Origin: a virus
DNA length: 46,545 nucleotides
Strand: one strand, 5' to 3'
Virus record (IMG/VR): IMGVR_UViG_3300003324_000411
Location: 1 to 46,545 of that record
The notes under the pieces are model-generated. The model was given only the letters and a program-made list of their open reading frames with translations, searched no databases and had not been told where the DNA came from. Both the position numbers and the translations under genes were made by a program. Each line of letters begins with the position of its first letter. Within the stretch, counting starts at the first letter, position 1. Shown one piece after another: positions 203-46,545 of the stretch.

Positions 203-234
203 AACTTACTCTATCCTTTACCTTAAAGTGGTCA

Positions 235-1836: not shown

Positions 1837-1844
1837 AATTTAAA

Positions 1845-1869
1845 GTCTTGTTCAGTTACTGAGCATTAC
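1845..1869. repeat. Dispersed 25-bp palindrome, copy 1
   Basis: The arms are GTCTTG and CATTAC around the core TTCAGTTACTGAG. The copy sits in the gap between the adaptor stop codon (which it overlaps) and the spike start, upstream of the spike on the transcribed minus strand. Confidence 0.85.
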
Positions 1870-2591
1870 CTCACAATAATGAGAGGCACTAGCTTTCTCG
1901 GATTCTTCTGTTCAAACCCACCTCCTAAGATTACAGCTCTCTCAGGCACTGGATAATGTTGCCGTTGGCGCTCCAGTAGCCTCGTAGCCTTCTCTAACTT
2001 TAACTTAGCATCGGGCTGTCCGCTGCGCGTGAGCTTCTCGGCGGCCACCAGCAAAACTACGAGCATATCGTCGAAGTCTAGCTTATCCCCATCCGCTGCA
2101 ACCGTTAGGACTTTCCTCTGTCCTGTGAAGCGGACGCTTTGGTCGGTAACGGGAACTGGCCAGACCTCGAACTGATCTGCATTGGCGGCCTCCGAGGTAT
2201 TCGTTGACATCCTCCAACGGCGAATCGGGTCTTGCTGTTGGTTCTTCGCAATGTTCGACACATTGTACTCCGCCGCCCCTATGCCGTGCTCTATCTCATT
2301 ATAGATCTGGTTGTAATAACGCTCAACCAGAACTGGACGTTCGAAATTAATTACCGTATTAGCGCCCCTATCATTAACTGTTGGGAACGCTACAAATTGT
2401 TGCCCCGCGGCACAAGCGGCGTTCCAACGTTCTGCAAGGAATGGCCAGTCATACTCACTAGCTAGCCACTTCTGCATGTTGTCGATAAGTTGAGTGTACT
2501 CTGCGTCACTCTGAGTATTGGTGCCAGTAAAGTCACCAACCTCCGCTTTCAACATCGAACGTGCAACACTTAGCGCTGTACCGCGGGGCAT
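1866..2591 (-). CDS. Head-to-tail adaptor (tail tubular protein A-like)
   Basis: The 241-residue protein has the look of podovirus neck adaptors: an N-terminal helical segment, then WLASEYDWPFLAERW near residues 42-56, a mid-region of short strands, and a C-terminal helical segment (LVVLLVAAEKLTRSG, LEKATRLLERQRQHY). Known adaptors of this kind (T7 gp11 type) bind the portal and start the short tail. It lies between the capsid block and the spike gene, and the stop of 2597-2983 is a few bases upstream of its ATG. The fold assignment is from pattern recognition only; a completion protein of a related family is the alternative. Confidence 0.6.
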   Translation of the reverse strand: MPRGTALSVARSMLKAEVGDFTGTNTQSDAEYTQLIDNMQKWLASEYDWPFLAERWNAACAAGQQFVAFPTVNDRGANTVINFERPVLVERYYNQIYNEIEHGIGAAEYNVSNIAKNQQQDPIRRWRMSTNTSEAANADQFEVWPVPVTDQSVRFTGQRKVLTVAADGDKLDFDDMLVVLLVAAEKLTRSGQPDAKLKLEKATRLLERQRQHYPVPERAVILGGGFEQKNPRKLVPLIIVR

Positions 2592-2596
2592 AGGCT

Positions 2597-2983
2597 TTAA
2601 GATTTGACCTCAGTCAACTTATTGGTTGGCAATGATTTGCCAATACCTGCCTTACGTGCCTCGTCAAAAGTCGCCGGTAAGTTCGGCGATGTCCCAGGGA
2701 ACAAGGCATTGATTTTGTTCGCAGCATACTTTTGTCGTAGCCGCTGAATCTCGTCCGTCACCGTCCGCTGGACCGGATTTGTTTCCTTGACCTCAAGGAT
2801 TGGGTCCTTACCAGCATTGAACTGATGCTCGGCCACAAGCAATGTGACCTCAGCAGGCGTCACATCCGATATCGCAATATCGTGACCCGACTTGTCCAGT
2901 AGCAGTCGGATATTCGCTTGTTTCATAGTCGGCCCCGTAGGAGCAGCCGGTGTAGGACTTGCAGGTGTAGCTGTTGTACTCAT
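2597..2983 (-). CDS. Hypothetical virion-associated protein
   Basis: The 128-residue protein is not recognised. It starts with a Thr/Ala/Pro-rich stretch (residues 1-20) that looks disordered, followed by a mixed segment (MKQANIRLLLDKSGHDIAI) with short strands and helices. The C-terminal region mentions no known motif. It lies in the middle of the capsid-to-adaptor block with close spacing on both sides, so a structural or assembly role is likely by position. Confidence 0.6.
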   Translation of the reverse strand: MSTTATPASPTPAAPTGPTMKQANIRLLLDKSGHDIAISDVTPAEVTLLVAEHQFNAGKDPILEVKETNPVQRTVTDEIQRLRQKYAANKINALFPGTSPNLPATFDEARKAGIGKSLPTNKLTEVKS

Positions 2984-3028
2984 ATTCGGTTATTATATCT
3001 AAGTGATGGTCAGCTCAGGTCCTAATTC

Positions 3029-3765: not shown

Positions 3766-4818
3766 TTATGCTACGGAGTAAACCCCGTTGCCGTTAAGCT
3801 GCTTGACCGTAAGAGCACCCGTCCAAGTCATGGTCTTGAGGAAGATCATGTACTGGTAAGGCCGAGCCGGGCTGAGCACCTTGTTATCCTCTTCCTCCAT
3901 TGGACGAAGCTGCACTTTCTTGCCGTCCAGAATATAACAATACTTCTGAAGGCCGAGGCTGTCCAGTGTCGGGTCATACTCAAACGCTCCGAGGCCGGAA
4001 ATGTGCAGTCCTCCCACGCCAAGGTCAGTCGCTTTATCGCCTTGGAAACCTTCCATTGTGAAGTAACCTTTGGCGACCAGCTCCAACCGGAGGGCGTCAA
4101 GCCAAGACGAGCCACACAGCGCCTTATTCGGCTTACCGCCATAGCGTCTGAGCTGGACCAACTCACTGTTCAGGAACTGAATCAGTGTCGAGTTCTGGGC
4201 ACTAGTCGCAAGGCCGAGGCTTGCCCGGTTCCTCCAAGAAGGATACGTCACACGGCTAACGCCACCGGTCGAACCAAGGGTTGGTGTTGTGGTGATAAGG
4301 GCTTGAATGCCTGGCACCTGCTTCGCATCTTGTGAGCCGTCCTGCCACAGCATCTGATTGAACACCCTGCTCCACGATTCGCCGTAGTCATCAAGGCGAT
4401 TCTCCAGAATGCCGGTAATACGAGTCAGCGCCGTATCGGAATGCTCCGAGGTCCGGCCACCTTTGCTGTCATCAACAATCGTAATGCCGTCCTTTTTCAA
4501 CTCGGTCCATGTGATGATAAGGCTCGCAGCGACTTCCTTCCAGTTGAAGACCGCTCGTAGAATGTTCTGCGCTTGACCGAAGTTAAGGCTGTCATCTTCC
4601 TGATAGCCTTGAAGGAACCCGGCGGTGTCCGACATAAAGACAGCCTGAATAGGCTCGCTGATCTGTAAATTGCCAGAAGGGAACGTTTTCTGTCCATCTC
4701 GAAGCCACTTCAGTAAGGGCTTGTCTTGAGTCGTCTGGCTAAGTGCTTTGCCCCGCACATAAAATATAAGGGCCGCACTTGCAATATCGTTTGCTACTGT
4801 AAGTCCTAATGTTGCCAT
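3766..4818 (-). CDS. Major capsid protein
   Basis: The 350-residue product has the size and position of a major head protein: it follows a scaffold-like gene, which follows the portal. Its features fit HK97-fold capsids of podoviruses, with an N-terminal helical region, a segment rich in aromatic and charged residues (WTELKKDGITIVDD), a central domain with a conserved-looking SSWLDALRLELVAKGYF helix, and a C-terminal beta-rich end (YQYMIFLKTMTWTGAL). The ATG has no Shine-Dalgarno sequence. The product name rests on context and general appearance rather than on a single signature motif. Confidence 0.8.
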   Translation of the reverse strand: MATLGLTVANDIASAALIFYVRGKALSQTTQDKPLLKWLRDGQKTFPSGNLQISEPIQAVFMSDTAGFLQGYQEDDSLNFGQAQNILRAVFNWKEVAASLIITWTELKKDGITIVDDSKGGRTSEHSDTALTRITGILENRLDDYGESWSRVFNQMLWQDGSQDAKQVPGIQALITTTPTLGSTGGVSRVTYPSWRNRASLGLATSAQNSTLIQFLNSELVQLRRYGGKPNKALCGSSWLDALRLELVAKGYFTMEGFQGDKATDLGVGGLHISGLGAFEYDPTLDSLGLQKYCYILDGKKVQLRPMEEEDNKVLSPARPYQYMIFLKTMTWTGALTVKQLNGNGVYSVA

Positions 4819-5997: not shown

Positions 5998-8157
5998 TTA
6001 AGCCGCTACTGGCGGCGGATACATTTGTCCTTGTCCTTCATCGTTAACCGGAACCGGGTGCTGAGGACTAGGACGATGAAATGGCGGTCCCGGTGGTGGA
6101 CCTTGTGGCCCTTGTTCAAGTTGCTGAGGCTCTCCTTCTTGTGGCTGCTGAGGCTGCATTGGCCCTAGACCCACAGGATAGAAGTCCGCCGGGTCCAGCT
6201 TATCATCAAGTCTCTTAAGCAGCTCCCTAATGACAGCCATCGGATTCGCCCCGAACTGCAACAAAAATGGCCCAACCTTCTCAAAGTTAGCAAGCTCTAA
6301 TGCCTTATTAGGCCGTCCGCTAGACGCCGATTCAATCTCCAACGAAATCTCGTTAAGGAAGTCCGCCCGACTAGCCGTCGGCCAAACAGCGCCAATTCCT
6401 ACAATTCGCTGCACTGTCGTGGCACTCATCTCCATCAGCAATAGTTCCCCACCACATCTCGCTACGGCGGACAAGCAGTCATCAAGGTCATCGACATTCG
6501 AGGAGCTAATTGTCTGGCGACTCTGCTCTGCAATAGAACCGACAGTCGCCGTCACATTCGGCTGAGCTGCACCTATGTTTGCCTCCTGCATGGCGGTCAC
6601 AAGCATCGCATCCTCTTCCAACGGCCTTGTGTCATAGACCTCTGGATCAATCTTGGCCACCTGTAAGGGAACCACGACTTTGCCGGGATCTGTGCCTGGC
6701 GGCAAGTTCTCAAGTTCAATCACCTGATTATCACGCGCCATCTCAATCGCGTCCTTGTCCTTTTCCGACAACATGCCTTTGGGCGTCATGTACTTCGGCG
6801 CATTGGCCTTTCGCTGCTCACGCAAGGCTTGCCTCGTTCTATTCCACTCCTGCTGGATAGGCCGCATTAGGTCAACATCCGAGGGCGGAAAGATCTTGTT
6901 CTTGCAACCGGGCTCAGTCTCAACGTCGTTAAAAGTCAGCGGAAAGATCGTCCAAAAGGACTTAGGTGCCGGGGTCATCACCTCGGGAGCTTGAACATAG
7001 TCTTTCCAACCATCACAGATAATAAACGTCGACTTGTCCTTAAGGTTATAGACCTGCCAGAGACAAACCAGTGGCGACTCAGCCGAGTCCTCATCAACCT
7101 TAACTGGCACTTCGCTCTCGGTTCCATCTGCGTTGTACTCTTTAAGCTCTCCGCCAGCGGTAATGTTCGTGCCATACTTAGCATTAACGTCGTCCAACGA
7201 ATAGATGAACTCCTCAGTAATGTACTGAGCCCCCACAAATCCCTTCAGAATCCGTGTTCGACGGTCGGGAATGATGGCGGTCGCTGGCGGGAAGTCGAAC
7301 ACAAGACGCTCCTTGACCTCGGTGTTCTCATGGTCATCAAGCGAGGTCTGACTAGAGTTAAGCAACTCTTGCAGTCTCTGCATCTCGGCATCGGTCTCTT
7401 CCACCTTGCCGTCGACAATCTGTTGCAAAATCTCTTGTGCCATCTTTAACCTATCTAAAGGCACCTGTCGGCGGTCGCTATAAGTCAGTTGACTTTCATC
7501 TTCCCGCACAAACAAGACCTTGATATAGCCAACGCCACAAACGCTAACTCGGCGAACGAACTGCTTAGCTTGAACCTTGAAGTCCGGCTCTTGGGAGTCT
7601 TGTTGATACTGATATAGAATCTCAAGAGTCTTACCAACGTTATCCATCAAGGTCTCGTATTGGCGACCGCGCTGAAAATCGTTCATCAGCTCAAGGGCTG
7701 CTGGCGGTGGCGCGCCCATCTGCTGCATACCCATCATTGCAGCCCCTACCGCTTGCTGAATGGTCTCCATCTTACCATCCCAAACCGAGAAGTTCAGCTT
7801 CTTGCGCCTAGAAACGACCGTCCGAGGATTGCGAGCGTAAAGCGTAGCGACCTTTTGATTAATACGCTGCAAGGTCCAATTCGCGATGTAATTCTCTTCC
7901 TCTATCTTGTTCTGACCTTTCCACTGAAGGCTCGACACAAAATCCATATTGCGTCGCATCCGGTCAAAATCATTCTTCCACCACGCTTTGTCCTTCTTAA
8001 TTTCGCTCTGCCAGTGCTTAACCTGTGCTCTAGCCGCCAAGACCTCGTTCGTCTCAGGACCTTCAGGCACGTCCGACCTTGGGGTCATGACCGTCGGCTG
8101 ACCAAGTGTCGCATTATTAATCGCGTTGGCGGGACTATTTAGTAGCGTAATAGCCAT
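5998..8157 (-). CDS. Portal protein
   Basis: The 719-residue product has podovirus portal size and follows TerL. Early residues (KHWQSEIKKDKAWWKNDF, then MDFVSSLQWKG and NWTLQRINQKVATLYARNP) match the usual start of such portals, where a helical clip precedes the wing. The last 60 residues are Pro/Gln/Gly-rich and probably disordered. I chose the ATG at 8155-8157, two bases after the TerL stop codon; an in-frame TTG seven codons upstream would overlap TerL and is less likely. The portal forms the dodecameric gate through which TerL packages DNA. Confidence 0.85.
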   Translation of the reverse strand: MAITLLNSPANAINNATLGQPTVMTPRSDVPEGPETNEVLAARAQVKHWQSEIKKDKAWWKNDFDRMRRNMDFVSSLQWKGQNKIEEENYIANWTLQRINQKVATLYARNPRTVVSRRKKLNFSVWDGKMETIQQAVGAAMMGMQQMGAPPPAALELMNDFQRGRQYETLMDNVGKTLEILYQYQQDSQEPDFKVQAKQFVRRVSVCGVGYIKVLFVREDESQLTYSDRRQVPLDRLKMAQEILQQIVDGKVEETDAEMQRLQELLNSSQTSLDDHENTEVKERLVFDFPPATAIIPDRRTRILKGFVGAQYITEEFIYSLDDVNAKYGTNITAGGELKEYNADGTESEVPVKVDEDSAESPLVCLWQVYNLKDKSTFIICDGWKDYVQAPEVMTPAPKSFWTIFPLTFNDVETEPGCKNKIFPPSDVDLMRPIQQEWNRTRQALREQRKANAPKYMTPKGMLSEKDKDAIEMARDNQVIELENLPPGTDPGKVVVPLQVAKIDPEVYDTRPLEEDAMLVTAMQEANIGAAQPNVTATVGSIAEQSRQTISSSNVDDLDDCLSAVARCGGELLLMEMSATTVQRIVGIGAVWPTASRADFLNEISLEIESASSGRPNKALELANFEKVGPFLLQFGANPMAVIRELLKRLDDKLDPADFYPVGLGPMQPQQPQEGEPQQLEQGPQGPPPGPPFHRPSPQHPVPVNDEGQGQMYPPPVAA

Positions 8158-24716: not shown

Positions 24717-24907
24717 TCATCACGACCGATAAGATAAACAAGCTCGCCGATGCCCTGCGTAAGCACCGAGCAATCTGCCCATTTTGTAAAGGATTTATTC
24801 ACTTTCACCTTAGCGATGAAGGTAAGCCGCAACTTCAACTAGGCCTACAAGGTGAAATGTATCTCTGTCGAGAGGCCGAACTCTTAATCTTTAGCATACT
24901 AACATGA
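24713..24907 (+). CDS. Small protein with CxxC motif
   Basis: The 64-residue product has CPFC near residue 22, a His pair (FIHFH) and one later Cys (YLCREAEL), which might complete a zinc site. It overlaps its upstream neighbour by four bases and the ParB-methyltransferase gene by four. Confidence 0.6.
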   Translation: MIITTDKINKLADALRKHRAICPFCKGFIHFHLSDEGKPQLQLGLQGEMYLCREAELLIFSILT

Positions 24908-26400
24908 CCCGAACAACCCTTCCTATTAATGAAATCGTCGTTGAAAACAGACTGCGTGAAGATCTTGGTGATATTACTGGTCTTGCAGATAGTATCAAAC
25001 GCTTTGGGCTTATACAGCCGATTGTTGTCTCACAAGATAAGCGGCTCATCGCTGGAGGTCGTAGACTTACAGCTTGCCGTCAACTTGGTCAATCTCACAT
25101 TGATGTTGTATATCGTGAGACTCTTACGGCGGACGAACTTCACGAGCTAGAGCTTGAAGAGAATATCCGCCGGAAGTCAATGACGTGGGTCGAAGAGGTC
25201 CTCTCTATTGACGAGATCCACCGGATCAAGAAACGCCGAGGTGCCTTAGAGGGTTGGACATGGAACCAACGTCTAGCTGCCGAGGCATTCGGTGTCCAGA
25301 CCGGCACTATTAACTACATCTTGAAGGTCGCTGAGAAGCTACGACAAGAAAAGTACTTGCCCGAGGACCAGAGAAAATACAGCAAATATAACTCAGCTTA
25401 TGAAGCCTACCGACTCGGTATTCTACGTGAAGAAGAGGAAAGACTTCAGGCTGAGCTTGCCAAGCGACACCGAGAGATGGCCAACCAAGGTTCCAAAGAG
25501 ACCGAGGCTGCGCAACTTATCCAGTACGTTGAAGAAGTCGAGACTAAGCCGGACCTCTTAGCATTTGAACGGGAACGTTATAATAGCAACCCGCTAAACA
25601 CAGTACCTTTTGACGAGTACTGGGCTGAGAAACAAGCTGAGGCTAAGAAGGCCGCCGAGACTATTTACCTCTCGAACCGAGTGCTTCATCTTGACAGCAT
25701 CGGCTATATGGCGCATCTTGACCAGTTCCAACGCTTTGACCACATCATAACGGACATTCCTTACGGCATTGACATCGAGATGTTAAATCAGCAGAACCCT
25801 CATGGCGGGCTGGCTGACCTCGACACCGTAGCGAACGAGCACGATGTTAAGGAGAACCTTGCCCTGATAGCGGCGTTCTATCCAGCGGCTTTTCACTGCA
25901 CTAAGCCCTCAGCCTTCGTCATTACTTTCTGTGATATAATGAACTGGCAATATATGTATGACATTGCTGTCAATGCTGGCTTTGCGGTCCAACGTTGGCC
26001 CTTTATGTGGGTCAAGCCTCAGGCCATGAACCAGTGTGCAAGTTATAACTTTACAAAGAATTATGAGCCGGTCATAATCGCTCGTAAGCCAGGGGCAACC
26101 CTTGTGAACAAGGTGCAAAGGTGCGACTTCTTGGCTGACAATGCTCAAGCGGTCAACGAGACTGGTCACAAATTCGCCAAGCCTTACGAGGTCACAGGAC
26201 TATTAGCTAATGCGGTCAGCCTTGAGGGACAAGAAATCCTAGAGCCGTTTGCTGGACGAGGCTCGATGGCGATACAGATGCTCAGAATGAAACGACGTGT
26301 TGTTGCAGTCGAGAAACAAGAGGCGCATTACAACGCCCTAGTAGAAAATATTAAGAGACATGTCTATCTCGCAGTAAACCCCAACTATACTTTTAAGTGA
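24904..26400 (+). CDS. ParB-like domain fused to an amino-methyltransferase
   Basis: The 498-residue fusion starts with a ParB/Srx-type domain (INEIVVENRLRED; GLADSIKRFGLIQPI; IAGGRRLTACRQLG, residues 49-62) and a KorB-like HTH (WNQRLAAEAFGVQTGTINYI, 120-139). A charged helical linker runs to about 230. Then comes an N6-adenine/N4-cytosine methyltransferase: motif IV as DIPY (284-287, in place of DPPY), and FAGRGS (449-454). Motif order fits class beta. It probably modifies phage DNA against restriction or marks origins. The ParB part may tether it to specific DNA sites. Confidence 0.85.
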   Translation: MTRTTLPINEIVVENRLREDLGDITGLADSIKRFGLIQPIVVSQDKRLIAGGRRLTACRQLGQSHIDVVYRETLTADELHELELEENIRRKSMTWVEEVLSIDEIHRIKKRRGALEGWTWNQRLAAEAFGVQTGTINYILKVAEKLRQEKYLPEDQRKYSKYNSAYEAYRLGILREEEERLQAELAKRHREMANQGSKETEAAQLIQYVEEVETKPDLLAFERERYNSNPLNTVPFDEYWAEKQAEAKKAAETIYLSNRVLHLDSIGYMAHLDQFQRFDHIITDIPYGIDIEMLNQQNPHGGLADLDTVANEHDVKENLALIAAFYPAAFHCTKPSAFVITFCDIMNWQYMYDIAVNAGFAVQRWPFMWVKPQAMNQCASYNFTKNYEPVIIARKPGATLVNKVQRCDFLADNAQAVNETGHKFAKPYEVTGLLANAVSLEGQEILEPFAGRGSMAIQMLRMKRRVVAVEKQEAHYNALVENIKRHVYLAVNPNYTFK

Positions 26401-27191: not shown

Positions 27192-29945
27192 ATGCCTAAG
27201 ACCTTATTTGAGGACTTCTTTGACGAGTCAGAACCTTGCGTTCTGGACAACATAAGAGCAGTGCCTAATGTGCATCCTTTAGTCCCGCCGCAGAGCTATC
27301 GTATTGCACTAATAGGTGAAGCGCCTGGCGCGGACGAGGTAGCCGAAGGTAAGCCCTTTGTAGGCTACAGTGGTAGGGAGCTAGACAAATACCTAAGCCA
27401 TGCAAGCATTCTACGTAACATGTGTTTTGTTGGCAACGTCTGTCAGCACAGACCGTTCGCCAACAAGTTAGCAACTTTCAAGTGGCTAGGCCCTGAGATT
27501 CAGGATGGACTGTCTAAGCTTAGTGCGGACCTCGTGGCCTTTAGGCCTAACGTTGTGGTCTGCCTTGGAGCCGCAGCCTTACACGCCTTTAAGGAAGGTC
27601 GAAGTGCGGACGTCAGTGTTAAGAAATCTGGTAAGGACCTGACGTTCAACTTCCCGAACCCAATCTCTAGTTGGCGAGGCAGTTTCTTCATGTCGCATCT
27701 CGATGCGCCGTTACCCAATGTCAAGTGCATAGCGACGTATCATCCCGCAGCTTGCCTTCGGAACTTCGAATGGATGCCCCTCTTGATGTTAGACCTTAAG
27801 AAGGCCGCCAACGCTGCCTTGACTCCAGAACTGGTCCTGCCTGACCGGGTGCTAAGGATTGACCTATCCCCTGACCAGATAGTGAGTGAGCTACAGCGAA
27901 TCAAAGAAGAGAAACCTATTATAGCTATCGACATTGAAGGTTACGTCGCAGTCCTAGACAATAAGCACTTCGGTATGAAGTGCATCTCCGTAGCGATTAA
28001 TCATAACTACTGCTTTATCGTGCCATTTGCACATCGAGATAACCGTTCGGTCTGGTCAGTCGAGGATGAGACTAGAATCTGGCGAGCCTTAGCCAGCGTG
28101 CTTAGCGACCCAAGTATCGGCAAGATCTTACAGAACTCTTTATATGACCGGTTCGTGCTACAGTATAGCTATAACTTGCCGGTCAGAGGCGTAGTTGAAG
28201 ACACTATGCTTAAGCATTGGGAGCTTTACAGCGAGCTTGAAAAGTCGCTAGGCTTTCAATGTAGCGTTTACACGATGGAGCCTTATTACAAAGAGGACCG
28301 CGAGAGCGAGAGTCACGAGACTTTCTGGACCTATTGCTGTAAAGATTCGGCTGTTACGCACGAGATTAGCGGTCGCCTTGACAAGTTCCTGAGAGGCAAG
28401 GCCTTGCAGCACTACCGCTTTAACATGGACCTGCTTAACCCATTCCTTTACATGGAGCTGCAAGGTATCCAATACAACTGGAGCTTGGCGAAGGAACGCT
28501 ACAAAGAGGTCATGGCGCACATCTACGACCTTCAGGTCGACCTTGACAAGATAGCAGGAACCGGGTTGCCAAGCGGCAAGACAAAGGGCGAACTTATTAG
28601 CCTAGTTCAAGACTTAATGTGCTATAAGCGAGACCGAACTAAGCCTAAGAAGGAGTATGCTGAGGTCTATGATATTAACATGCGGACGTTGCTAGGGCTA
28701 GGACCTCTTAGTAAGCAAGAAGTGGGCCGCTTAGCTGTAGACTGTGACCTTAGCCTTAACATTAAGAGTGACAAATTCAAAAAGTTCCTATATGAAACGC
28801 TCAACTTACCGGCGCAAATCGACCCGAAAACGAAAGCCCTTACCTCAGACTACGAAGCCTTGCTCAAGGTCAAAGACCACGACAAAAGCGGGGCCGTTGA
28901 CATTGCTATATCCATTGGTATGCTCCGCACTAGAGCACAAATGTTATCGATCCATCCAGATAAAGATGGACGCGTACGCTGTGGATATAACACTGTCGGA
29001 ACGGAGACTGGACGGATTACTTGCTATACCAGCCCTACCGGAAGTGGTTATAATCTACAGACGATACCGTCGGAGAATCCGCTCAGACCAGAAGGGCACC
29101 CCCTCCGTTCAGGTATGCGCGATTTATTTACCGCGGACCCGGGTTACTACCTCTTTCAATGCGACTTATCAGGAGCTGACGGATGGACAGTGGGAGCACA
29201 TCTTGCAGCTCTCGGCGAGAGCACTATGCTCGCTGACCTGAAGGCGAAAATAAAACCTGCCCAACGCATTGCTTACATGTTAAGGCACGGCAACGATAGC
29301 CTTCGAGGTCTTAGCCGTGATGAGATAAAGATAGCACTTAAAGAGATTAAGAAAGAGGACTTCGACTACTTTATGTGCAAGTGCGGTATCTGGGGTATCT
29401 GCTACTTGATGGGCGTCGACCGCCTTGCGAACCTTATCCTTGAACAGAGCGAAGGACGTATCAAGATGAGCCGGACAGACGTGGCGACCTTTAGGTCCGC
29501 GGTCTATGCCTGCTATAAGCCGAACATCTGGCATGATGCCACTAAGCGAAAGCTCAGTAATCAGCCCTATCCACCTAGGCTGACTTCGGCCTCTGGTCAT
29601 ACACGAATTTTCTTTGGGCGCTATAGCGAGGTGCTAGGCGAAGCCTTAGCCAATGAACCACAGGAGAACACTACCTATGCCACGAATCTTGCAGCTTACA
29701 ACTTATGGAAAGACCCAGAGAACAGGGTGGGGAATAAGCTTAGAATCGTGCCACTCCATCAAGTTCACGATGCACTTGTTGGACAGTTCAAAATCGAGGA
29801 CCTTGAGTGGGCATTACCTAAGATTAAATCCTACTTTAATAACACGCTTGAAATAGCGGGTCTTAAAATCGTAATCCCTTTCAGTGGTCAATACGGCCAT
29901 AATTGGGCCTTTGACAAAGACAGCCAAGTCGGAACGTTCGAATGA
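27192..29945 (+). CDS. Uracil-DNA glycosylase fused to family A DNA polymerase
   Basis: This 917-residue fusion joins two enzymes. Residues 37-190 are a family 4-type uracil-DNA glycosylase: GEAPGADE (42-49), GKPFVGYSG (53-61), NVCQHRP (82-88) and HPAA (184-187). Residues 240-400 are a 3'-5' exonuclease with DIE (247-249), NSLYDRF (315-321, D319) and YCCKD (381-385). The polymerase part has motif A DLSGADGWT (658-666), a motif B-like KCGIWGICY (730-738) and motif C QVHDAL (857-862). There is no 5'-3' exonuclease. Motif A and B residues differ from E. coli Pol I. It is the replicative polymerase of this phage, probably acting with 30042-31271. Confidence 0.92.
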   Translation: MPKTLFEDFFDESEPCVLDNIRAVPNVHPLVPPQSYRIALIGEAPGADEVAEGKPFVGYSGRELDKYLSHASILRNMCFVGNVCQHRPFANKLATFKWLGPEIQDGLSKLSADLVAFRPNVVVCLGAAALHAFKEGRSADVSVKKSGKDLTFNFPNPISSWRGSFFMSHLDAPLPNVKCIATYHPAACLRNFEWMPLLMLDLKKAANAALTPELVLPDRVLRIDLSPDQIVSELQRIKEEKPIIAIDIEGYVAVLDNKHFGMKCISVAINHNYCFIVPFAHRDNRSVWSVEDETRIWRALASVLSDPSIGKILQNSLYDRFVLQYSYNLPVRGVVEDTMLKHWELYSELEKSLGFQCSVYTMEPYYKEDRESESHETFWTYCCKDSAVTHEISGRLDKFLRGKALQHYRFNMDLLNPFLYMELQGIQYNWSLAKERYKEVMAHIYDLQVDLDKIAGTGLPSGKTKGELISLVQDLMCYKRDRTKPKKEYAEVYDINMRTLLGLGPLSKQEVGRLAVDCDLSLNIKSDKFKKFLYETLNLPAQIDPKTKALTSDYEALLKVKDHDKSGAVDIAISIGMLRTRAQMLSIHPDKDGRVRCGYNTVGTETGRITCYTSPTGSGYNLQTIPSENPLRPEGHPLRSGMRDLFTADPGYYLFQCDLSGADGWTVGAHLAALGESTMLADLKAKIKPAQRIAYMLRHGNDSLRGLSRDEIKIALKEIKKEDFDYFMCKCGIWGICYLMGVDRLANLILEQSEGRIKMSRTDVATFRSAVYACYKPNIWHDATKRKLSNQPYPPRLTSASGHTRIFFGRYSEVLGEALANEPQENTTYATNLAAYNLWKDPENRVGNKLRIVPLHQVHDALVGQFKIEDLEWALPKIKSYFNNTLEIAGLKIVIPFSGQYGHNWAFDKDSQVGTFE

Positions 29946-39364: not shown

Positions 39365-39739
39365 CTACAGATCCTTTACAAAGAAGTCATAGGTTCCCCC
39401 ATTAGCATACCCCAATGACTTCATAATAGGGTAAAAGGGGCTATGTTTAGGCACTGGAAAGCAGACACCACGTCCGCCATTCATCGCTACATGATTCTCA
39501 ACCCTGTTAATAAGGCTAAGGCTCTCACGAGCTTGTAGCTCCTTAGTCGAAAGCCAAGCCATGACTATCGGACGACCGGGAGCGCCGATACTGAAGTAGC
39601 CTACTAGCTTGCCGTCCTTAACTATCGGGTGAGTTGGCAAAAATACGCCATGGTCGTCAGCCTTGGCTAACTCTACCAAGGCCTTATGGTCCTCGTGTGT
39701 GCACCCTGGCTTTATCCAAGCAAACTTACTACTTATCAT
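39365..39739 (-). CDS. gp13-like / GNAT-fold protein
   Basis: The 124-residue product ends with GYANGGTYDFFVKDL and has SPFYPIMKSLG before it, in the manner of GNAT-like domains. Podoviruses commonly have such a protein between nozzle and ejected proteins (T7 gp13 family). No acetyl-CoA loop is clear, so an enzymatic role is not claimed. Confidence 0.55.
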   Translation of the reverse strand: MISSKFAWIKPGCTHEDHKALVELAKADDHGVFLPTHPIVKDGKLVGYFSIGAPGRPIVMAWLSTKELQARESLSLINRVENHVAMNGGRGVCFPVPKHSPFYPIMKSLGYANGGTYDFFVKDL

Positions 39740-40926
39740 CGTTCGGCCTTGTTATAGTGGAACAGGACTGTGCTGATATGGGCAGGTCCCGTCCACGTTG
39801 GGTCGCCCACGATCTTTAACTTGAAATGAGTACCTTGTTGGCTAAAATTGATATGCTTTAGGTCAAAGGTCGAGTCCTTCTTAGCGTCACCTTGTGGAGT
39901 TGGCGTCGTAAAGATAAGCGTTAAGGCTCCACCCGAAGGATACATGCCACCATAGACCTTCCAGCCACCTTCGGCACCAATGTCAATGCCTTGTGCGAAC
40001 TTATTCAGCTTAGGAGTTCCATCCGCCAGCCATGGCAACTCAAAGACCGGAGCTGTCGCATCATAGGTGTTATTGTCAGCACCTCCATAAAGTATATGAC
40101 CGCCGTCGGATGCTCGGCAATAGACCTGATTATTAAAGACTACGAACTTAATCGGCGTAAACGTCGTGCCTTGTGAGTCGACTGGCAAATAGGTCGACCA
40201 AGCAGTAATCTTGTCGGAGGTAAAGCGGCTTAGAACGTAAATCTTACCATTAAGATAAGCCCAGTAGCGCTTCCCTTCAGGTATGACTATCGAGCAACAG
40301 GTTGAGGCCGATGCAGTCAAGAGGTCAGCCTGAACTAACGAGTCAATCGCCAGTCCAATGTCATCCACATACGCATTAAGCGTGACCTCTCTAGGTCGAA
40401 GGCTACGGAAGCCCGTGCGGTCCAGAAATATGACATCATAATCCCCAATACTTCGAACCGACAACGGGGCTTCCGTGCCTATGTTTTCGAGCGTCTGTAC
40501 TAAGTTGAAAAGGCTAGGGTCTGCGTCGACCGTCCAAATTTGGACCGTCTTGGTCGCCAAGATGATAAGGCGACCTTGCATCTGAGCAAAGGCCTTAACT
40601 AAGTCCTGAGTTCCAAATTGAGTAAGGTAATCCTCAAACCCTGCGCCAGGGGCTTGCTCTTCGAACTCAGTCGGGTCGCTATTGTCAGAGAAAACATAGC
40701 GGCTACTGAGCCCTACGTATTCCCGATTCTTAAAAGTGAAGCACACAGTCGGATTGAGGTTATTAAACACTCCCATGCCGAGCGTAAAGGGAAACGCAGC
40801 CGTGGCGACTTCTAAGGTCCAGCTATCGCCAATAGCCCAGTCATCAGAGAACCCTATCTGCCAGCGTTCTCCGTAACCCGGCACCTCGGCGACTCCACCA
40901 GCGAAAGCGAAATTAGTTACAGCCAT
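39736..40926 (-). CDS. Tail nozzle protein, second part
   Basis: The 396-residue product resembles the C-terminal half of podovirus nozzle/DNA-stabilising proteins: GRLIILATKTVQIWTVDADP, IGTEAPLSVRSIGDYDVIFL, then GKRYWAYLNGKIYVLSR as short propeller-like repeats. It directly follows the 560-residue protein that looks like the first half, so the nozzle is split in two genes here. It ends four bases into the next gene. Confidence 0.7.
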   Translation of the reverse strand: MAVTNFAFAGGVAEVPGYGERWQIGFSDDWAIGDSWTLEVATAAFPFTLGMGVFNNLNPTVCFTFKNREYVGLSSRYVFSDNSDPTEFEEQAPGAGFEDYLTQFGTQDLVKAFAQMQGRLIILATKTVQIWTVDADPSLFNLVQTLENIGTEAPLSVRSIGDYDVIFLDRTGFRSLRPREVTLNAYVDDIGLAIDSLVQADLLTASASTCCSIVIPEGKRYWAYLNGKIYVLSRFTSDKITAWSTYLPVDSQGTTFTPIKFVVFNNQVYCRASDGGHILYGGADNNTYDATAPVFELPWLADGTPKLNKFAQGIDIGAEGGWKVYGGMYPSGGALTLIFTTPTPQGDAKKDSTFDLKHINFSQQGTHFKLKIVGDPTWTGPAHISTVLFHYNKAER

Positions 40927-40929
40927 AAA

Positions 40930-42612
40930 TTAAGAACCTTGAAAGATGATTGTAAAGTCAACTGACACAGGCGGCAAAGCACCGGAATTAGCAGTGCATC
41001 TCCAAACACCTTGACCAGTAGCAGGTATCACGGTTCCATGGGTTCTATTATTAGTATCCCCAACTGAACCTGTAGTGCCACCACTTATAACTCCAGGGAG
41101 ACTGAAGTAAATAGTATTAGCCGATAAAGGTGTGTCCAACTTAGTGCTACACAAAATACCATTTGGATTACTAACCTCATGCCACGTATAAGTTACAGGT
41201 CCCGGTGCTCCAGAGACAATGGCTTTATTAGAGGCATACTGTGTAGTTTGACCTGTTTGGGGGTGAGAGATAACAGTAGAAAACTGCATCTTTATAGCGA
41301 ATGTAGGTAAAACTGTTCCTACAAAAGCAGCTACCGTCATAGTACCTGTCGTTGTTACACTCAAATTATAAGTAAAGGCACCAAAGCCATCTGGCGCTAT
41401 CACTGTAATGTCAGCTCCAGATGAGTTAGCTGCCGTGTAGCCCGTTAGATATGTGTTATTGTTAATAGCCGTGACAACATCCACTGCGGTCTGATGCAAG
41501 CTAGTGTTGTAAGAAATAGCCCCATTAGTTAAGTCAACCGTCCCTGTGCCATCTGCGTTCTGTGGGGCACTAACCTGAATCGTATCTCCGCCAGCACCTC
41601 CCGTGATCGTAAACGAAGCCTTAGCCGCAGTCTCGGGCACTCCTGGATAATCCTGATCAATTAGTTTTGCTCCGATAAGGCCGTTGTCTGAATCCTTACT
41701 AACCGTCGGTATAAAGTGCACACCTCCTGGACTCATTACAAGAGTGGACCCGGCTAAGGCAGTTCCAGTTTGATTCGCTTGAGTCAAGGCATTCTTATTA
41801 GCCACTGCTCGCCAACCTAGATAAGAGTCATTTGTTGCAGCTAAATTGTTGATCTGATCAGCAAGGTCTTGAGATAAGTCACTTATAGTCTCATTTCCAG
41901 TTGATAGGATAATAACTCGTCCATTGCGTGATGGCGCGATTATATCTCCATCATAGTAACAGAACACCGAGCCGTTGTTGAATCGAGCAATAGCAAAGGC
42001 CTTACCAAGAAAGTTGTCAGAGTAAACAAGCTCAGTCATGAAAATGTTCAAGGCCTCAGTATTGCCGTTAGGCGGCTCTAAGACTTGGTACCCAACTCCC
42101 ACAGGTAGAACCGTTGCATTACTCCAGGCACAGTTGCCATCAGAATTTGTTACACCTTCATTAGTGCCAACGTTTGCATAGCGAAAGTCATGGGGTCCAA
42201 CCAAGGTAATGACATACGTGCCATTATAATTCCCAGCAACGGCATTGGTTAGTCCAGAAATAGTGACTTGCATTCCGGCCTGTAGAAACTGATTTGGAGG
42301 GTAGGGAGTATTTAACGTAAGCACCGCAACGTTAGCTGCGCGTTGTCGAGTTTTAATAGGAATTGTCAACGGCAACGAGCCGAACGTTATAAGACCTGAA
42401 TCTGTGTCTTGTAAGCCAAAACTATAGTTCGGATAAGCTCCCGTAGCGTCCCGCACAAAGGCCTTACGTTTCTCAAACTGACCTCCGGGATTAATATGAC
42501 CGTCTTGCGCCGTAAGCAAGGTGCCAGGCACAAGGCTCAAGGCATCACGGCGAGAATCAAGGCCATACTTAAAATTCTCAAGGACTAAAGACTTTTGAAT
42601 GCTATTCGCCAT
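40930..42612 (-). CDS. Tail nozzle protein, first part (tail tubular protein B-like)
   Basis: The 560-residue product opens with the tubular-protein-B pattern: NFKYGLDSRRDALSLVPGTL, then AQDGHINPGGQFEKRKAF (about residues 14-51). An insertion of Thr/Asn/Gly-rich beta-sandwich domains follows, and the frame ends with an Ig-like fold. The rest of the nozzle is in 39736-40926. The dispersed palindrome lies directly upstream. Confidence 0.75.
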   Translation of the reverse strand: MANSIQKSLVLENFKYGLDSRRDALSLVPGTLLTAQDGHINPGGQFEKRKAFVRDATGAYPNYSFGLQDTDSGLITFGSLPLTIPIKTRQRAANVAVLTLNTPYPPNQFLQAGMQVTISGLTNAVAGNYNGTYVITLVGPHDFRYANVGTNEGVTNSDGNCAWSNATVLPVGVGYQVLEPPNGNTEALNIFMTELVYSDNFLGKAFAIARFNNGSVFCYYDGDIIAPSRNGRVIILSTGNETISDLSQDLADQINNLAATNDSYLGWRAVANKNALTQANQTGTALAGSTLVMSPGGVHFIPTVSKDSDNGLIGAKLIDQDYPGVPETAAKASFTITGGAGGDTIQVSAPQNADGTGTVDLTNGAISYNTSLHQTAVDVVTAINNNTYLTGYTAANSSGADITVIAPDGFGAFTYNLSVTTTGTMTVAAFVGTVLPTFAIKMQFSTVISHPQTGQTTQYASNKAIVSGAPGPVTYTWHEVSNPNGILCSTKLDTPLSANTIYFSLPGVISGGTTGSVGDTNNRTHGTVIPATGQGVWRCTANSGALPPVSVDFTIIFQGS

Positions 42613-42614
42613 AA

Positions 42615-42639
42615 GTATTGTTCAGTTACTGAGCAAGAC
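42615..42639. repeat. Dispersed 25-bp palindrome, copy 10
   Basis: The arms are GTATTG and CAAGAC around the core TTCAGTTACTGAG. It overlaps the last codons (GLAQ) and stop of 42626-43015 and lies two bases before the nozzle gene start. Confidence 0.85.
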
Positions 42640-43015
42640 CCATTCGGGCTCGATAGAAAGTGTTCGAGCCATAATTAGGTACCACTACCGTAGGATTTGT
42701 CGAAGACAACGTCAGCTGAAAGTTCTCTTGCGGATACGCCGTCCAATTAGTTAAGTCTGGACTAGACTCAATAAAAAAGCGTTCATCTCCAAACAGCTCT
42801 ATGGCGGCTAACTGGAACGCAGGACCGTCGTAGCTACTAACTTGTGGGGTCCCATAGCCTCCACTCGCACTCACGAGGGCCGCATTCGGCCATGAGACCA
42901 CACACAAGTCAGTGACATTCGTAGCCGTAATGCTTAATGAAGCCGGGATTACTTGAATCCCTAGCAGTCGCAGCAACACACAGATTAGCAAAACGGCTAC
43001 TATAAACTTTTTCAT
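42626..43015 (-). CDS. Secreted protein with verrucomicrobial-type C-terminal module
   Basis: The 129-residue product begins with a signal peptide or anchor (MKKFIVAVLLICVLLRLLGI). The rest matches the small beta module common at the ends of secreted Verrucomicrobiota proteins: FFIESSPDLTNWTAYPQ (80-96), then NTFYRA (118-123). The module is normally part of longer host proteins, so this looks host-derived. It lies between the nozzle and the secreted zinc-ribbon gene. A role in surface attachment or receptor blocking is speculative. Confidence 0.65.
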   Translation of the reverse strand: MKKFIVAVLLICVLLRLLGIQVIPASLSITATNVTDLCVVSWPNAALVSASGGYGTPQVSSYDGPAFQLAAIELFGDERFFIESSPDLTNWTAYPQENFQLTLSSTNPTVVVPNYGSNTFYRARMGLAQ

Positions 43016-43486
43016 CTATTGAGTGCCTTTGGGCGTGTTCTTTACTACTACCATTCGGCTCTCATGGAAGTCCTCGCCGCATTTCTTGCAGTGGTACGCT
43101 AACAAGTAGGCCGTCGAGATGTCCATAGCCGTAATCTGCTCACCGCTTTTCGTAATCTTGGCTCTAACCTTCGGATTATGGCAGTGCGGACACTCCTTAT
43201 AGACCCTGGACTTGAGATTTATTGGCTTCTCGATGTCCTTAGCCAGCGACGGTCCAGCCATTTCCGCCACAATTCGTTCAAGGTTCGCGACTCGTCTCTG
43301 TAGCTCAGCGTACTGAGCTAAAGTGAACGCTGGCGAGCCCGTTTCCCTTAGTCTATTGACTCGGTCCTCAAGATGTTGTAGCCTCGACTCTACCACTGAG
43401 GGGACCTGAGGTCCTCCTGGCGGTGTCGGAGGTTCACCTGCTCTAACAGTCAAGGCTACAAGAGATAAAAACGCAATAATCTTCAT
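43016..43486 (-). CDS. Secreted or anchored zinc-ribbon protein
   Basis: The ATG at 43484-43486 gives 156 residues with a signal peptide (MKIIAFLSLVALTVRAGE), a Pro-rich linker, a coiled coil (residues 32-77, ESRLQHLEDRVNRLRE and so on), and a zinc ribbon with CPHC (99-102) and CKKC (133-136). An exported zinc ribbon is unusual. Longer versions of the frame start inside the upstream gene and lack the signal peptide at their N-terminus. Its start overlaps the stop of the 59-residue gene (ATGA). Confidence 0.65.
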   Translation of the reverse strand: MKIIAFLSLVALTVRAGEPPTPPGGPQVPSVVESRLQHLEDRVNRLRETGSPAFTLAQYAELQRRVANLERIVAEMAGPSLAKDIEKPINLKSRVYKECPHCHNPKVRAKITKSGEQITAMDISTAYLLAYHCKKCGEDFHESRMVVVKNTPKGTQ

Positions 43487-43662
43487 TTTGGTGGCACTGA
43501 GGGGATTCCAAAGGCACTGTACGGCTTTAAGTCCTTGAACAACGTGATAAAATCGTCTAGTGTGGCACCTTTTTTCTGCCATAACTGAGCGACTTGCACT
43601 GCCAACTCGGGTCCGTACTTAGCCGCGAGTATAACTAGTGCCTCAATAGCTGCTTCTGACAT
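43483..43662 (-). CDS. Small helical protein, 59 residues
   Basis: The ATG at 43660-43662 has one of the few good Shine-Dalgarno sequences here, AAAGGAG (43672-43678), nine bases upstream. The peptide (MSEAAIEALVILAAKYGPEL, AQLWQKKGATLDDFI) resembles short proteins found in phage lysis blocks. It is coupled to the zinc-ribbon gene. Confidence 0.65.
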   Translation of the reverse strand: MSEAAIEALVILAAKYGPELAVQVAQLWQKKGATLDDFITLFKDLKPYSAFGIPSVPPK

Positions 43663-43663
43663 G

Positions 43664-44044
43664 TTACTTGGCTCCTTTCTGCCTAAAGTTAGCAATTAAC
43701 GAGACCAAAGCAGCCCCTGACTGACCGACTTTCGAGGTTGCCTCTACTACGCTATTGCTATTATCCGGCGAATTTACTGCCAAATAGGCATTGACAGCAT
43801 CTCGCGCCACAAGTTGTGCTTGGTAATAAGTCTCGTAGGCATTCTGAACAAGGTTAATCTGTTCAACAGTCACCCCGTTCGTGCTCTTTACCCAGTCCGC
43901 CCAAGCAAGCATCGAGGTGTTCACTGTCGCTATGAGCGATCCCTCGACCTTGTAAGCCACTGTAGTTGGTGTCGTGCTCTGACAAGCCGCTATCGCGACC
44001 AGTAGCCAAACACCCATAAAGCCATAAAGAAATAAGTTCTTCAT
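43664..44044 (-). CDS. Small lipoprotein, possible spanin-like
   Basis: The ATG at 44042-44044 gives 126 residues with a lipobox (AIAAC, cysteine near residue 21) after a Phe/Leu/Val core. The rest is helical (AWADWVKSTNGVTVEQINLV, YYQAQLVARDAVNAYLA). Outer-membrane spanin subunits of phages are small lipoproteins, but usually shorter and Pro-rich. A superinfection-exclusion lipoprotein is the alternative. An upstream in-frame start at 44086 runs into the 44053-44114 hairpin and is unlikely. Confidence 0.6.
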   Translation of the reverse strand: MKNLFLYGFMGVWLLVAIAACQSTTPTTVAYKVEGSLIATVNTSMLAWADWVKSTNGVTVEQINLVQNAYETYYQAQLVARDAVNAYLAVNSPDNSNSVVEATSKVGQSGAALVSLIANFRQKGAK

Positions 44045-44052
44045 AATCAAAG

Positions 44053-44114
44053 AAGGGTCGCCCAGCCTAGCATAAGGAAAGTCCACAACCTTACACTAAA
44101 CTTAGGCGACCCTT
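44053..44114 (-). promoter_or_regulatory. Large hairpin between two late genes
   Basis: AAGGGTCGCC and GGCGACCCTT (44053-44062 and 44105-44114) pair perfectly over 10 bp. A second stem TAAGG/CCTTA can form inside. It lies upstream of the lipoprotein gene on the transcribed strand. It could be a processing site or partial terminator; there is no T run. Confidence 0.55.
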
Positions 44115-44123
44115 GCATCCGGG

Positions 44124-44504
44124 TTATGGGGTGGGAGGTGGAGGAACCTCAACGGTCTCAGCACCTTGAGCCGCTGCCGCTTTCAACGCTGCCGCGATTG
44201 CCTTGATATGGTCAATCTGAGGCTGAACGTCCGGCGGCACTGTGATCTTAGCCAAGGCTGCGGTCAACGCATTCTCAATCTGAGTCGCAGCATCCGTAAG
44301 GTCACCTTGAATCTCCGCATCCAAGTCTGCAATTGTTGCCATAAGTTTTATCTCCATTTCGTTAAGTGTCCGCAAGATCTGGCACAAGGCTCTCTCTAGC
44401 CGACACTCAAGGTTGTAAAGGTCTTGTTGAGTAGCCGGACGAGAAGAAGACCTAGTGACTTCTCGTTCAGATTCGTCCTTTGGACTATAAAGTTTATGCT
44501 GCAT
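44124..44504 (-). CDS. Coiled-coil hypothetical protein in the lysis block
   Basis: The 126-residue product is charged and helical (LECRLERALCQILRTLNEME) with an Ala-rich second half (AAALKAAAAQGAETVEV) and a Pro-rich tail. It overlaps the holin-like gene by 11 bases. There is no membrane span. It may be a virion or lysis accessory protein. Confidence 0.6.
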   Translation of the reverse strand: MQHKLYSPKDESEREVTRSSSRPATQQDLYNLECRLERALCQILRTLNEMEIKLMATIADLDAEIQGDLTDAATQIENALTAALAKITVPPDVQPQIDHIKAIAAALKAAAAQGAETVEVPPPPTP

Positions 44505-44796
44505 CTTTGTCCTTAGGTTGCACTTTAGCCAAAGGGTTTAAAGAGATCTTCTGCGGCTCACCCACAAATGGCGGGTTAGAATCGTCGGTTGGCGGCAGAG
44601 GGTTATTATTCCACCACTGCAAGAACCTGACCATACCGTTGCCAAAGAACTGCGCCTCAACCGAGGTCCAGAAGGTTGACGACCAGATCGGCGTGCCTAC
44701 TTTCCATGCCACAAAGGAGGCAATCAGTGCCGAGGTCCCACCATGTATCAGCACCTCAATCCCACCTCTCAACCATTTACGTGTCTTATTACTCAT
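44494..44796 (-). CDS. Putative holin-like membrane protein
   Basis: The 100-residue product has one clear membrane span (HGGTSALIASFVAWKVG, about 19-35) and a second weak amphipathic stretch around residues 45-63. A Pro/Lys-rich cytoplasmic-type tail follows. Size, position and the charged N-terminus (MSNKTRKWLRGG) fit a holin. No specific family is proven. Confidence 0.5.
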   Translation of the reverse strand: MSNKTRKWLRGGIEVLIHGGTSALIASFVAWKVGTPIWSSTFWTSVEAQFFGNGMVRFLQWWNNNPLPPTDDSNPPFVGEPQKISLNPLAKVQPKDKDAA

Positions 44797-44802
44797 AGGC
44801 TT

Positions 44803-45108
44803 TTACTTAAATACCAATTTTAACAGCTCCAAAGCTACAATCGAAAGCACACTTGTAAGCACTGTTCCTAGTAGCTTTGTATTGCGCATACTCCGTTCTT
44901 TCATTGCTGCAATTTCGTATGTCAGCTTATCTACCGCCTCTAGTCTTTGAGTGAGCTTTTCCATAGCGTTACTTAGAGCTTGTCGTTTCTCTTGCTCGCT
45001 CATTAGATAACTGATCACATGTGCAACATTTTGCACTAACTGTTCGATGTGCGGGTTCTCCAGAATAGTGTCTCTTATCCGCCTTAGTTCGTCCAGATTC
45101 ATGCTCAT
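44803..45108 (-). CDS. XhlA-like membrane-anchored coiled-coil protein
   Basis: The 101-residue product has a charged coiled-coil body (LSNAMEKLTQRLEAVDKLTY) and a single C-terminal span (LLGTVLTSVLSIVALELLKLVF). This matches the layout of XhlA-type proteins that help holins. It precedes the holin-like gene by a few bases. No family search was possible. Confidence 0.55.
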   Translation of the reverse strand: MSMNLDELRRIRDTILENPHIEQLVQNVAHVISYLMSEQEKRQALSNAMEKLTQRLEAVDKLTYEIAAMKERSMRNTKLLGTVLTSVLSIVALELLKLVFK

Positions 45109-45123
45109 TCATTTCGTTATGTT

Positions 45124-45918
45124 TTATTGCTTCCGCGCCCGATAAAACCCCGGCACCGCCGCGCAGCTATTCTCTCCCATCGCAGTGCTCCAATAATTCC
45201 AGGTCGAAAGCTCCTCCGACCTTTCCACCGTGTAACTCACGCTCGGGTCCCCATGCACCGTTAGCGTCCCGTCCGAGGAGATGGCTAACCACAAGCGCAC
45301 ATCATCCACCGCAAACGAAACCAGATTGAACCTCGCGGCGCCACTCACCACCGCCACGCCCGTGTCATAAAATGACCCTCCCCCAAACGCCAACCCGATT
45401 TGCGCAACGTTCGAAACCGTATTCCAAAACCCTCCCACCAAATCATCATTCGCTGTCGAGTAAGGCCCTCCCGCATCCGTCCAATCCCCCACATGATCCA
45501 GTGTAGCCGTGAGCGTGTTAGTCAGTCCGTTCGTCGAAATCTCTACCCAAGGCGTGTTAAACCAAAAGTTCGTGGGTGCCGTCGTGTTATTGTCATATCC
45601 AGTCTGACAGCTAAAAAATAGTCTCGCGCTTGCAGGCCTTGACCCAGTGTTCCATGTACCTTGTCCGCCAAAGCGAAACACCGTGTTGCTTTCGCAGTCC
45701 ACCACGAAACTGCACGTGAGAATCTTCCCTGAAATATCCCCACAAAATTGTTGCGTTGAAACCAGGAACGCCGGGTAGTGCGCATGCATCGCCGCATCTG
45801 GAAAGTCAAAGCTTCCCCCTGGTGCATCCGCAAACGTGTAACCGGGATAATAATCCAGGAGTTGCCAGTCGGAGGCCGCGCAACTGAGGGCGAGTAAAAA
45901 TGGAAGGAGGAATTTCAT
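45124..45918 (-). CDS. Secreted host-like beta protein with verrucomicrobial C-terminal module
   Basis: The 264-residue product has a signal peptide (MKFLLPFLLALSCA), a long beta-rich domain with many Trp, Phe, Asn and Thr, and a C-terminal YTVERSEELSTWNYW...GFYRARKQ module typical of secreted Verrucomicrobiota proteins. G+C is much higher than the phage average (76 of 120 bases at 45241-45360, against 26 of 60 at 3001-3060). A recent transfer from the host is likely. It follows the fibre gene and may act in host recognition or surface modification. No enzyme motif is recognised. Confidence 0.75.
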   Translation of the reverse strand: MKFLLPFLLALSCAASDWQLLDYYPGYTFADAPGGSFDFPDAAMHAHYPAFLVSTQQFCGDISGKILTCSFVVDCESNTVFRFGGQGTWNTGSRPASARLFFSCQTGYDNNTTAPTNFWFNTPWVEISTNGLTNTLTATLDHVGDWTDAGGPYSTANDDLVGGFWNTVSNVAQIGLAFGGGSFYDTGVAVVSGAARFNLVSFAVDDVRLWLAISSDGTLTVHGDPSVSYTVERSEELSTWNYWSTAMGENSCAAVPGFYRARKQ

Positions 45919-45919
45919 T

Positions 45920-46545
45920 TCAGTTGCTCGCGATGACCCACCATTGCGCTCCGTCAGAAATCACCTGCACATACTTATTCTGCGCACTGAGAGAGTAGCT
46001 CAGAGATGAATCAATATTCTGCGCCCCCGTCGCGTTCGTGACAGTGCCGCTCGAATTCGCGATTTCCTTGATGATGAAAGTTTTTCCCGTGTTACCAACG
46101 GCAGTCGGCAATGTCACAACCTTGGTTGCCGCATTCACCAGAATTACTGAATCAGAAACCGACGCTGTATAATCCACCGTCTTAGTGGTCACCTGCTCAA
46201 TGAAACCGTTAGTTGCGGTTATTGAATTTTTTAGTGTAAGTGCGCCATTGGTCTGGATGGTTGCCACCGATCCGCCATCCCCTAGAGAATAAAACACAAA
46301 GGATGGAGAACTCGCTCTGGTTCCTATTATCCAGTCCCTGGACCCTCCTGTGCTAAACATGAATTCTGCGTAATCCGTGAAAGATGTTCGACTGATTTCA
46401 AACTGAGAGTTGTTTGCCTTGAATCTCACCTGCGCATTTGCCCCAGATCCCACCGTTACTCCCACATCATTCGTTACAGCGTTGGCCGATGCAGATACTC
46501 GAAAATTTTGACCGCTGTTAGCCAACGCATTCACATCCGAAAACG
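45920..46545 (-). CDS. Phage fibre/appendage protein, C-terminal part (starts at 202)
   Basis: This is the 3' part of the gene that begins at 202, reading through the circular joint. The last part (VDYTASVSDSVILVNAATKV, VTLPTAVGNTGKTFIIKEIA, LSAQNKYVQVISDGAQWWVI) is a common C-terminal domain of phage fibres and appendages. Before it lies a stretch like trimeric fibre repeats (ANAQVRFKANNSQFEIS; TIQTNGALTLKNSITATNGF). The fold is all-beta and probably trimeric. It faces the host surface in the virion if it is a fibre; the N-terminal signal peptide leaves open a secreted form. Confidence 0.75.
   Translation of the reverse strand, partial: FSDVNALANSGQNFRVSASANAVTNDVGVTVGSGANAQVRFKANNSQFEISRTSFTDYAEFMFSTGGSRDWIIGTRASSPSFVFYSLGDGGSVATIQTNGALTLKNSITATNGFIEQVTTKTVDYTASVSDSVILVNAATKVVTLPTAVGNTGKTFIIKEIANSSGTVTNATGAQNIDSSLSYSLSAQNKYVQVISDGAQWWVIASN
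46525..46545. repeat. Terminal direct repeat, right copy
   Basis: These 21 bases equal positions 1-21 exactly; see the left copy. Confidence 0.9.

Follow-up and report, generated by a model that had tools for sequence, protein, structure and literature searches.

Signal peptides on late proteins in a clade of short-tailed phages: a possible outer layer fitted outside the cytoplasm

A viral DNA of 46,545 bases (IMG/VR virus record IMGVR_UViG_3300003324_000411; this whole stretch is called the window) was analysed for export signals in the products of its late genes. Judged from their N-termini, several of these late proteins are almost certainly built for export. The packaging, capsid, connector, nozzle and ejection proteins are free of signals, whereas the product of the gene following the capsid gene and the fibre-, spike-, lectin- and depolymerase-type proteins of the virus and its relatives are led by Sec or Tat signals. 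Because the core parts lack signals and the surface-type parts have them, assembly in two compartments is the simplest model. In this model, to which we assign a probability of roughly 0.42, the virion would consist of a cytoplasmic core and a decoration and receptor-binding layer exported by Sec or Tat, and the particles released from one cell could share a pool of attachment proteins. The wider statement, that the virus belongs to a clade of uncultured short-tailed phages whose exported outer-layer proteins are fitted outside the cytoplasm, falls just short of an even chance.

Signal peptides in the window

Signals were scored with a home-made scorer of the n-, h- and c-regions, which placed all but one of 25 known E. 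coli signal peptides at 12.25 or above; the exception was the long Tat signal of AmiA. In a 40-kb control segment, the flagellar region of E. coli, YceB, FlgA, FlgH and FlgI were flagged together with two N-terminal membrane proteins, the scorer being responsive also to N-terminal membrane helices. The original prediction had named seven late proteins as opening with a signal peptide or a lipobox, and all seven proved to do so from the positions listed in Table 1, with scores between 12.7 and 16.9: spike-like protein 16.9, fibre 15.7, small 129-residue protein 14.8, lipoprotein 14.7, post-capsid protein 14.6, zinc-ribbon protein 14.2 and beta-type protein 12.7. The interval to which that prediction was attached (43016-46545) holds only part of the set; the spike-like protein, the beginning of the fibre and the post-capsid protein lie at 1-3721. 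The other 17 late proteins scored 8.6 or less from their annotated starts. At a false-positive rate of 1.9%, determined on shuffled N-termini, seven signal-bearing proteins among 24 correspond to P = 2e-7, and six among 24, with the lipoprotein excluded, to P = 4e-6. When alternative starts were allowed, one false call appeared, inside TerL, and none in the early genes. No Tat signal was found in the window itself.

All seven proteins fit the Sec pattern of a positively charged n-region, an uncharged h-region and small residues at -3 and -1 (the site of the small protein is poor). The predicted mature parts of the exported proteins are rich in serine, threonine, asparagine and cysteine and weakly charged: cysteine makes up 1.5% of them as against 0.5% of the core proteins, a threefold difference, and charged residues 11.9% as against 22.1%, about half. 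The fibre gene had been read as crossing the joint of the record, which was borne out since the two ends of the window share a 21-bp direct repeat: its frame runs from base 202 to base 1 and on from 46524 to 45920, encoding 268 amino acids. Errors in the choice of start codon were ruled out by the ATG starts, by upstream spacing as short as that of the core genes and by the conservation of the signals.

Conservation in related viruses

Capsid searches yielded a comparison set of 102 viral contigs, six genome records and two isolate phages. Of the 21 loci of one clade that could be tested, 20 encode a signal peptide in the gene directly after the capsid gene; outside the clade, no true case was seen among 79 testable loci. 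Four further loci (L030, L041, L049 and L108) scored just above the threshold and were judged by eye to be false positives, their signal-free post-capsid protein opening with a "GVLAAAVANSGTFTVAYPAGT" strand. In the capsid tree, the 20 signal-bearing loci fall together on one side of a branch supported at 100/100. Another locus inside the branch, L038, ends before the post-capsid gene. The post-capsid protein of the window has exported homologues or positional equivalents in the 20 clade loci, and the adjacency of its gene to the capsid gene is kept across the clade. Members of the exported family share only 18-38% identity with the window protein, yet the signal is kept in 15/15 of them and lysine at positions 2-3 is nearly invariant. 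Homology of this family to the signal-free post-capsid family A4 was considered but found no support, no profile match being obtained.

Under a stricter rule, a signal was borne by 46 of 248 open reading frames (ORFs) in the clade; for the loci outside it the figure was 13 of 868 (P 7e-21), several of the 13 being plain membrane proteins. Homologues of the packaging, capsid, connector and nozzle proteins gave a single signal-like call in more than 500. Four of the clade genomes are near-complete; each has three to eight flagged genes, all of them in the block between the capsid and nozzle genes and none among packaging, ejection or early genes. The L042/L043 contig has seven signal-bearing genes in this block. 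An AxA-type cleavage motif followed the hydrophobic stretch in 26/47 clade signals but in only 10/54 internal hydrophobic segments (P 1.6e-4), an enrichment that disfavours simple membrane anchors.

Nature of the exported proteins

The exported proteins are likely of receptor-binding type, and attachment functions for the set are quite probable. Signal-led proteins of the clade include LamG-type lectins (PF13385), a BNR sialidase-like protein (PF13088) and an SGNH esterase (phrog_8480), and another ends in a baseplate-type C-terminus (phrog_20556). The route of export varies: the Tat motif SRRQFV leads a LamG protein of L003 and a Sec signal one of L042, while an adhesin of L002 (L002:8456) is led by the Tat motif PRRKFL. 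A scan for a Tat motif followed by a hydrophobic stretch gave two proteins in the clade (L002:8456 and L003:12955) and none in 857 ORFs outside; a third clade motif, in L003:7865, was recognized by eye. As two routes serve similar cargo, export itself appears to be under selection.

In the window, the C-terminal domain of the fibre matches phrog_37034 (E 6e-11), and the same domain ends a gene in a minor-tail cluster of Arthrobacter phages as well as long signal-free proteins in L130-L134. A model of the post-capsid protein (pLDDT 65) has a helix at the N-terminus and a body rich in beta structure; it matched lectins, carbohydrate-binding domains and viral jelly rolls, though none of them specifically. 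The model of the spike-like protein was unusable. Single-sequence searches of IMG/VR revealed no further relatives of either protein.

Outside the clade, L022 encodes upstream of TerL a Sec-signal adhesin (L022:524-1573) that by eye resembles L002:8456, which has a Tat signal, and L005:13497, which has none; exported adhesins may thus occur beyond the clade. In two other outside loci, genes upstream of that for the terminase specify proteins that open with a signal and finish in a PEP-CTERM-like sorting end (L011:1513-2361, VPEPASMTILGMGLIGLATLRRKWR; L048:6-770, VPEPGTLSLVGFALMLLGWLGLRKKF); these are possible phage-encoded exosortase substrates.

Proposed assembly in two compartments

According to the proposed model, the DNA-filled core particle would be built in the cytoplasm. 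The host Sec and Tat translocases would carry the outer proteins to the periplasm, where the signals would be cleaved and the proteins would fold. The outer proteins would then bind the finished, DNA-filled core in the periplasm, at lysis or on opening of the membrane: the post-capsid protein would decorate the capsid, and the spike and fibre would attach to the tail and later to the next host. The presence of the exported proteins on the virion, on which the model depends, has in our estimate an even chance.

Attachment of this kind has parallels. Docking of outer proteins on finished particles is biochemically ordinary: Dec, a decoration protein of phage L, is added once the capsid has been assembled and can bind finished capsids of P22 in vitro, and decoration proteins of several phages likewise join capsids that are already assembled (PMC6449081). 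The post-capsid protein, whose gene stands right after the capsid gene, is likewise a candidate for an added layer, but differs from Dec-like proteins in having a Sec signal. Clade proteins resemble P22-like tailspikes and other receptor-binding proteins in their tail-type C-termini and in beta-rich domains of adhesin or enzyme type. In P22, however, none of the structural genes was called signal-bearing; the calls were limited to the Rz spanin and a single spurious frame. The short-tailed Microcystis phage Mae-Yong1326-1 and Rhizobium phage RHph_N65 have the same capsid as the window, and their genes for TerL, portal, scaffold, capsid, connector and nozzle follow one another as they do there; unlike the window clade, they have no exported block between the capsid and nozzle genes, and in RHph_N65 the capsid gene is followed by a gene for a signal-free protein.

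Phage proteins that use host export include lipoproteins, spanins and signal-arrest-release (SAR) or signal-bearing endolysins (PMC8951688). The lipoprotein of the window falls within this group, but its members are lysis proteins and not of appendage type. The coat proteins pIII and pVIII of filamentous phages belong to the virion and are synthesized with signal peptides that are cleaved off. Filamentous phages, however, assemble in the membrane, whereas the window represents a tailed phage that packages DNA and has a capsid module of cytoplasmic type. In the open-access literature we found no precedent for signal peptides on virion proteins of tailed phages or for such exported phage proteins, which is weak evidence as most subscription journals lay outside the scope of the search.

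If the model is right, a tailed phage assembles its outer layer outside the cytoplasm, contrary to the usual picture of assembly; its attachment proteins could form disulfides, and the tie between the genome of a particle and its host-range proteins would be looser.

Several points weigh against it. Incorporation of the exported proteins into virions is in every case inferred from sequence, and exported adhesins might attach to the cell that makes them. Sequence and fold searches with the post-capsid protein gave no match to a known decoration or virion protein, and for the spike-like protein no homologue was found in phages, PDB or IMG/VR, nor any match to a known virion protein or tailspike. 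The L005 homologue of the Tat-led L002 adhesin (33% identity) has no signal, L075, although inside the clade, has no post-capsid gene, and most clade members retain a signal-free candidate appendage protein, a family of about 240 amino acids encoded after the connector. In the window, the small protein is the weakest case, with an arginine inside the hydrophobic stretch and a poor cleavage site, and the lipoprotein is probably an ordinary outer-membrane spanin. The original idea, that these exported late proteins are perhaps joined to particles after lysis, holds in part: export itself is supported by the scores, conservation in the clade, the AxA sites and the exchange of Tat for Sec, and the attachment type of several clade members by their domains, while joining to virions after lysis is a conjecture and the lipoprotein has an ordinary reading.

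Alternative explanations

The main and serious alternative, which we regard as possible though on balance doubtful, is that the exported proteins are depolymerases, lectins and surface modifiers that are made late and secreted without entering the virion, the receptor being bound by another protein. Their role would be to loosen capsule or matrix, to prevent superinfection or to cover the cell, and at the sequence level the two situations would look much alike. Sialidase-like, esterase and lectin domains are typical of secreted enzymes too, the beta-type and small proteins of the window resemble bacterial secreted proteins by eye, and two relatives outside the clade encode the PEP-CTERM-like proteins described above. 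The 240-residue family would provide most clade members with a signal-free appendage. This family is absent from the window and from G006, so that in these two no signal-free appendage candidate is evident except the nozzle proteins. The position of the post-capsid gene within the morphogenesis block in 20/21 testable clade loci and the tail-type domain at the C-terminus of the fibre also argue for virion components. Even if the proteins were secreted only, a clade exporting several adhesin- and enzyme-type proteins per genome would supply depolymerases and lectins, and we found no report of such a source. In this clade the signal pattern can serve as an annotation marker for candidate receptor-binding proteins.

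Alternatively, the proteins could be assembled in the cytoplasm with their N-termini retained, the hydrophobic segment serving in the virion to dock the protein or to form trimers. Tail appendages often attach through their N-terminus, and cleavage is a prediction, with a poor site in the small protein. This explanation is nevertheless improbable: AxA-type sites are enriched, the lysine pair and the signal persist among proteins of 18-38% identity, and Tat motifs, needless for a docking peptide, replace Sec signals on similar cargo.

That misplaced starts, lysis genes and membrane anchors fill the list is very improbable and already contradicted: although the lipoprotein is probably a spanin, N-terminal membrane helices are flagged by the scorer and the threshold was just exceeded by the signal-free post-capsid protein of four outside loci, chance is countered by P = 2e-7 in the window and about 1e-20 across loci, and error by ATG starts with core-like upstream spacing and by conservation across non-redundant clade loci.

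Gene order and other features of the window

On the minus strand the late genes run from TerL through portal, scaffold, capsid, post-capsid protein, a small gene and connector to spike and fibre, followed by the beta-type protein, two small membrane-type proteins and more small genes including the lipoprotein, and finally by the nozzle pair and ejection-type genes (Table 1). TerL was identified by its match to phrog_38 (E 1e-90); late genes without a family match were assigned from the gene order common to annotated relatives. The position of the connector corresponds in OP028995 to an annotated tail tubular protein. The nozzle pair has homologues in most loci, the counterpart in OP028995 being annotated as a packaged DNA stabilization protein.

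Table 1. Positions of the exported late proteins and neighbouring features in the window (aa, amino acids; a slash marks the predicted cleavage site)
Feature	Position	Strand	Remarks
Post-capsid protein, 230 aa	3029..3721	-	Sec signal, cleavage VEA/QNF; candidate capsid decoration protein
Spike-like protein, 533 aa	235..1836	-	Sec signal; probable beta-helix appendage, by eye
Fibre, first 67 codons	1..202	-	Sec signal SANS/QIL; gene continues over circular joint
Fibre, remainder (268 aa in total)	45920..46524	-	Tail-type C-terminal domain
Exported beta-type protein, 264 aa	45124..45918	-	C-terminal VERSEELSTW..FYRA stretch
Lipoprotein, 126 aa	43664..44044	-	Lipobox IAA/C; probable outer spanin
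Zinc-ribbon protein, 156 aa	43016..43486	-	Sec signal VRA/GEP; sub-threshold Zn_ribbon_8 match
Small protein, 129 aa	42626..43015	-	Weakest signal of the seven
Major capsid protein	3766..4818	-	No signal; phrog_9953 (E 1.5e-36); comparison anchor
Head-tail connector, tail tubular type	1866..2591	-	No signal; homologues in most loci
Two small membrane or coiled-coil proteins, holin-like, lysis-like cassette	44494..45108	-	Weak holin matches only
Nozzle pair p40926, p42612	39736..42612	-	No signal; downstream border of exported block

The lipoprotein is a small late protein with a lipobox, encoded near the lysis-like genes, and its only family match is a weak Rz-like one (phrog_456, E 0.014). 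A lipoprotein is found in the equivalent block of L002, L003, L034, L036, L039 and G006. Other small genes of the lysis-like cassette are perhaps also ordinary; its two holin-like proteins have transmembrane homologues in L005 and L033. The start codon of the zinc-ribbon gene overlaps the preceding stop codon (ATGA).

The beta-type protein gave no family match, and a plasmid search with it gave none. The small protein has the C-terminal stretch IESSPDLTNW..FYRA, and by eye L007:11094 and L034:13096 are alike; a similar "SS.DLTNW ... FYRA"-like end is thus seen in the products of 42626-43015 and 45124-45918 and in these two proteins. The "ESS.DLTNW...FYRA" style of C-terminus resembles that of secreted Verrucomicrobiota proteins, a possible clue to the host, which is guessed from this resemblance only to belong to the Verrucomicrobiota. 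Capsid searches of genomes for a host gave only distant relatives: records from Rhizobiales and from other alphaproteobacteria, and one from Deltaproteobacteria (Myxococcota).

Within the portal gene ARAGORN called a tRNA-Leu (gag) at 6231-6317 on the minus strand, which is probably spurious. On the plus strand, a 917-aa ORF at 27192-29945 combines a uracil-DNA-glycosylase domain (PF03167) with an exonuclease and a family A DNA polymerase, and at 24904-26400 a ParB-type N-terminal domain is fused to a DNA N6/N4 methylase.

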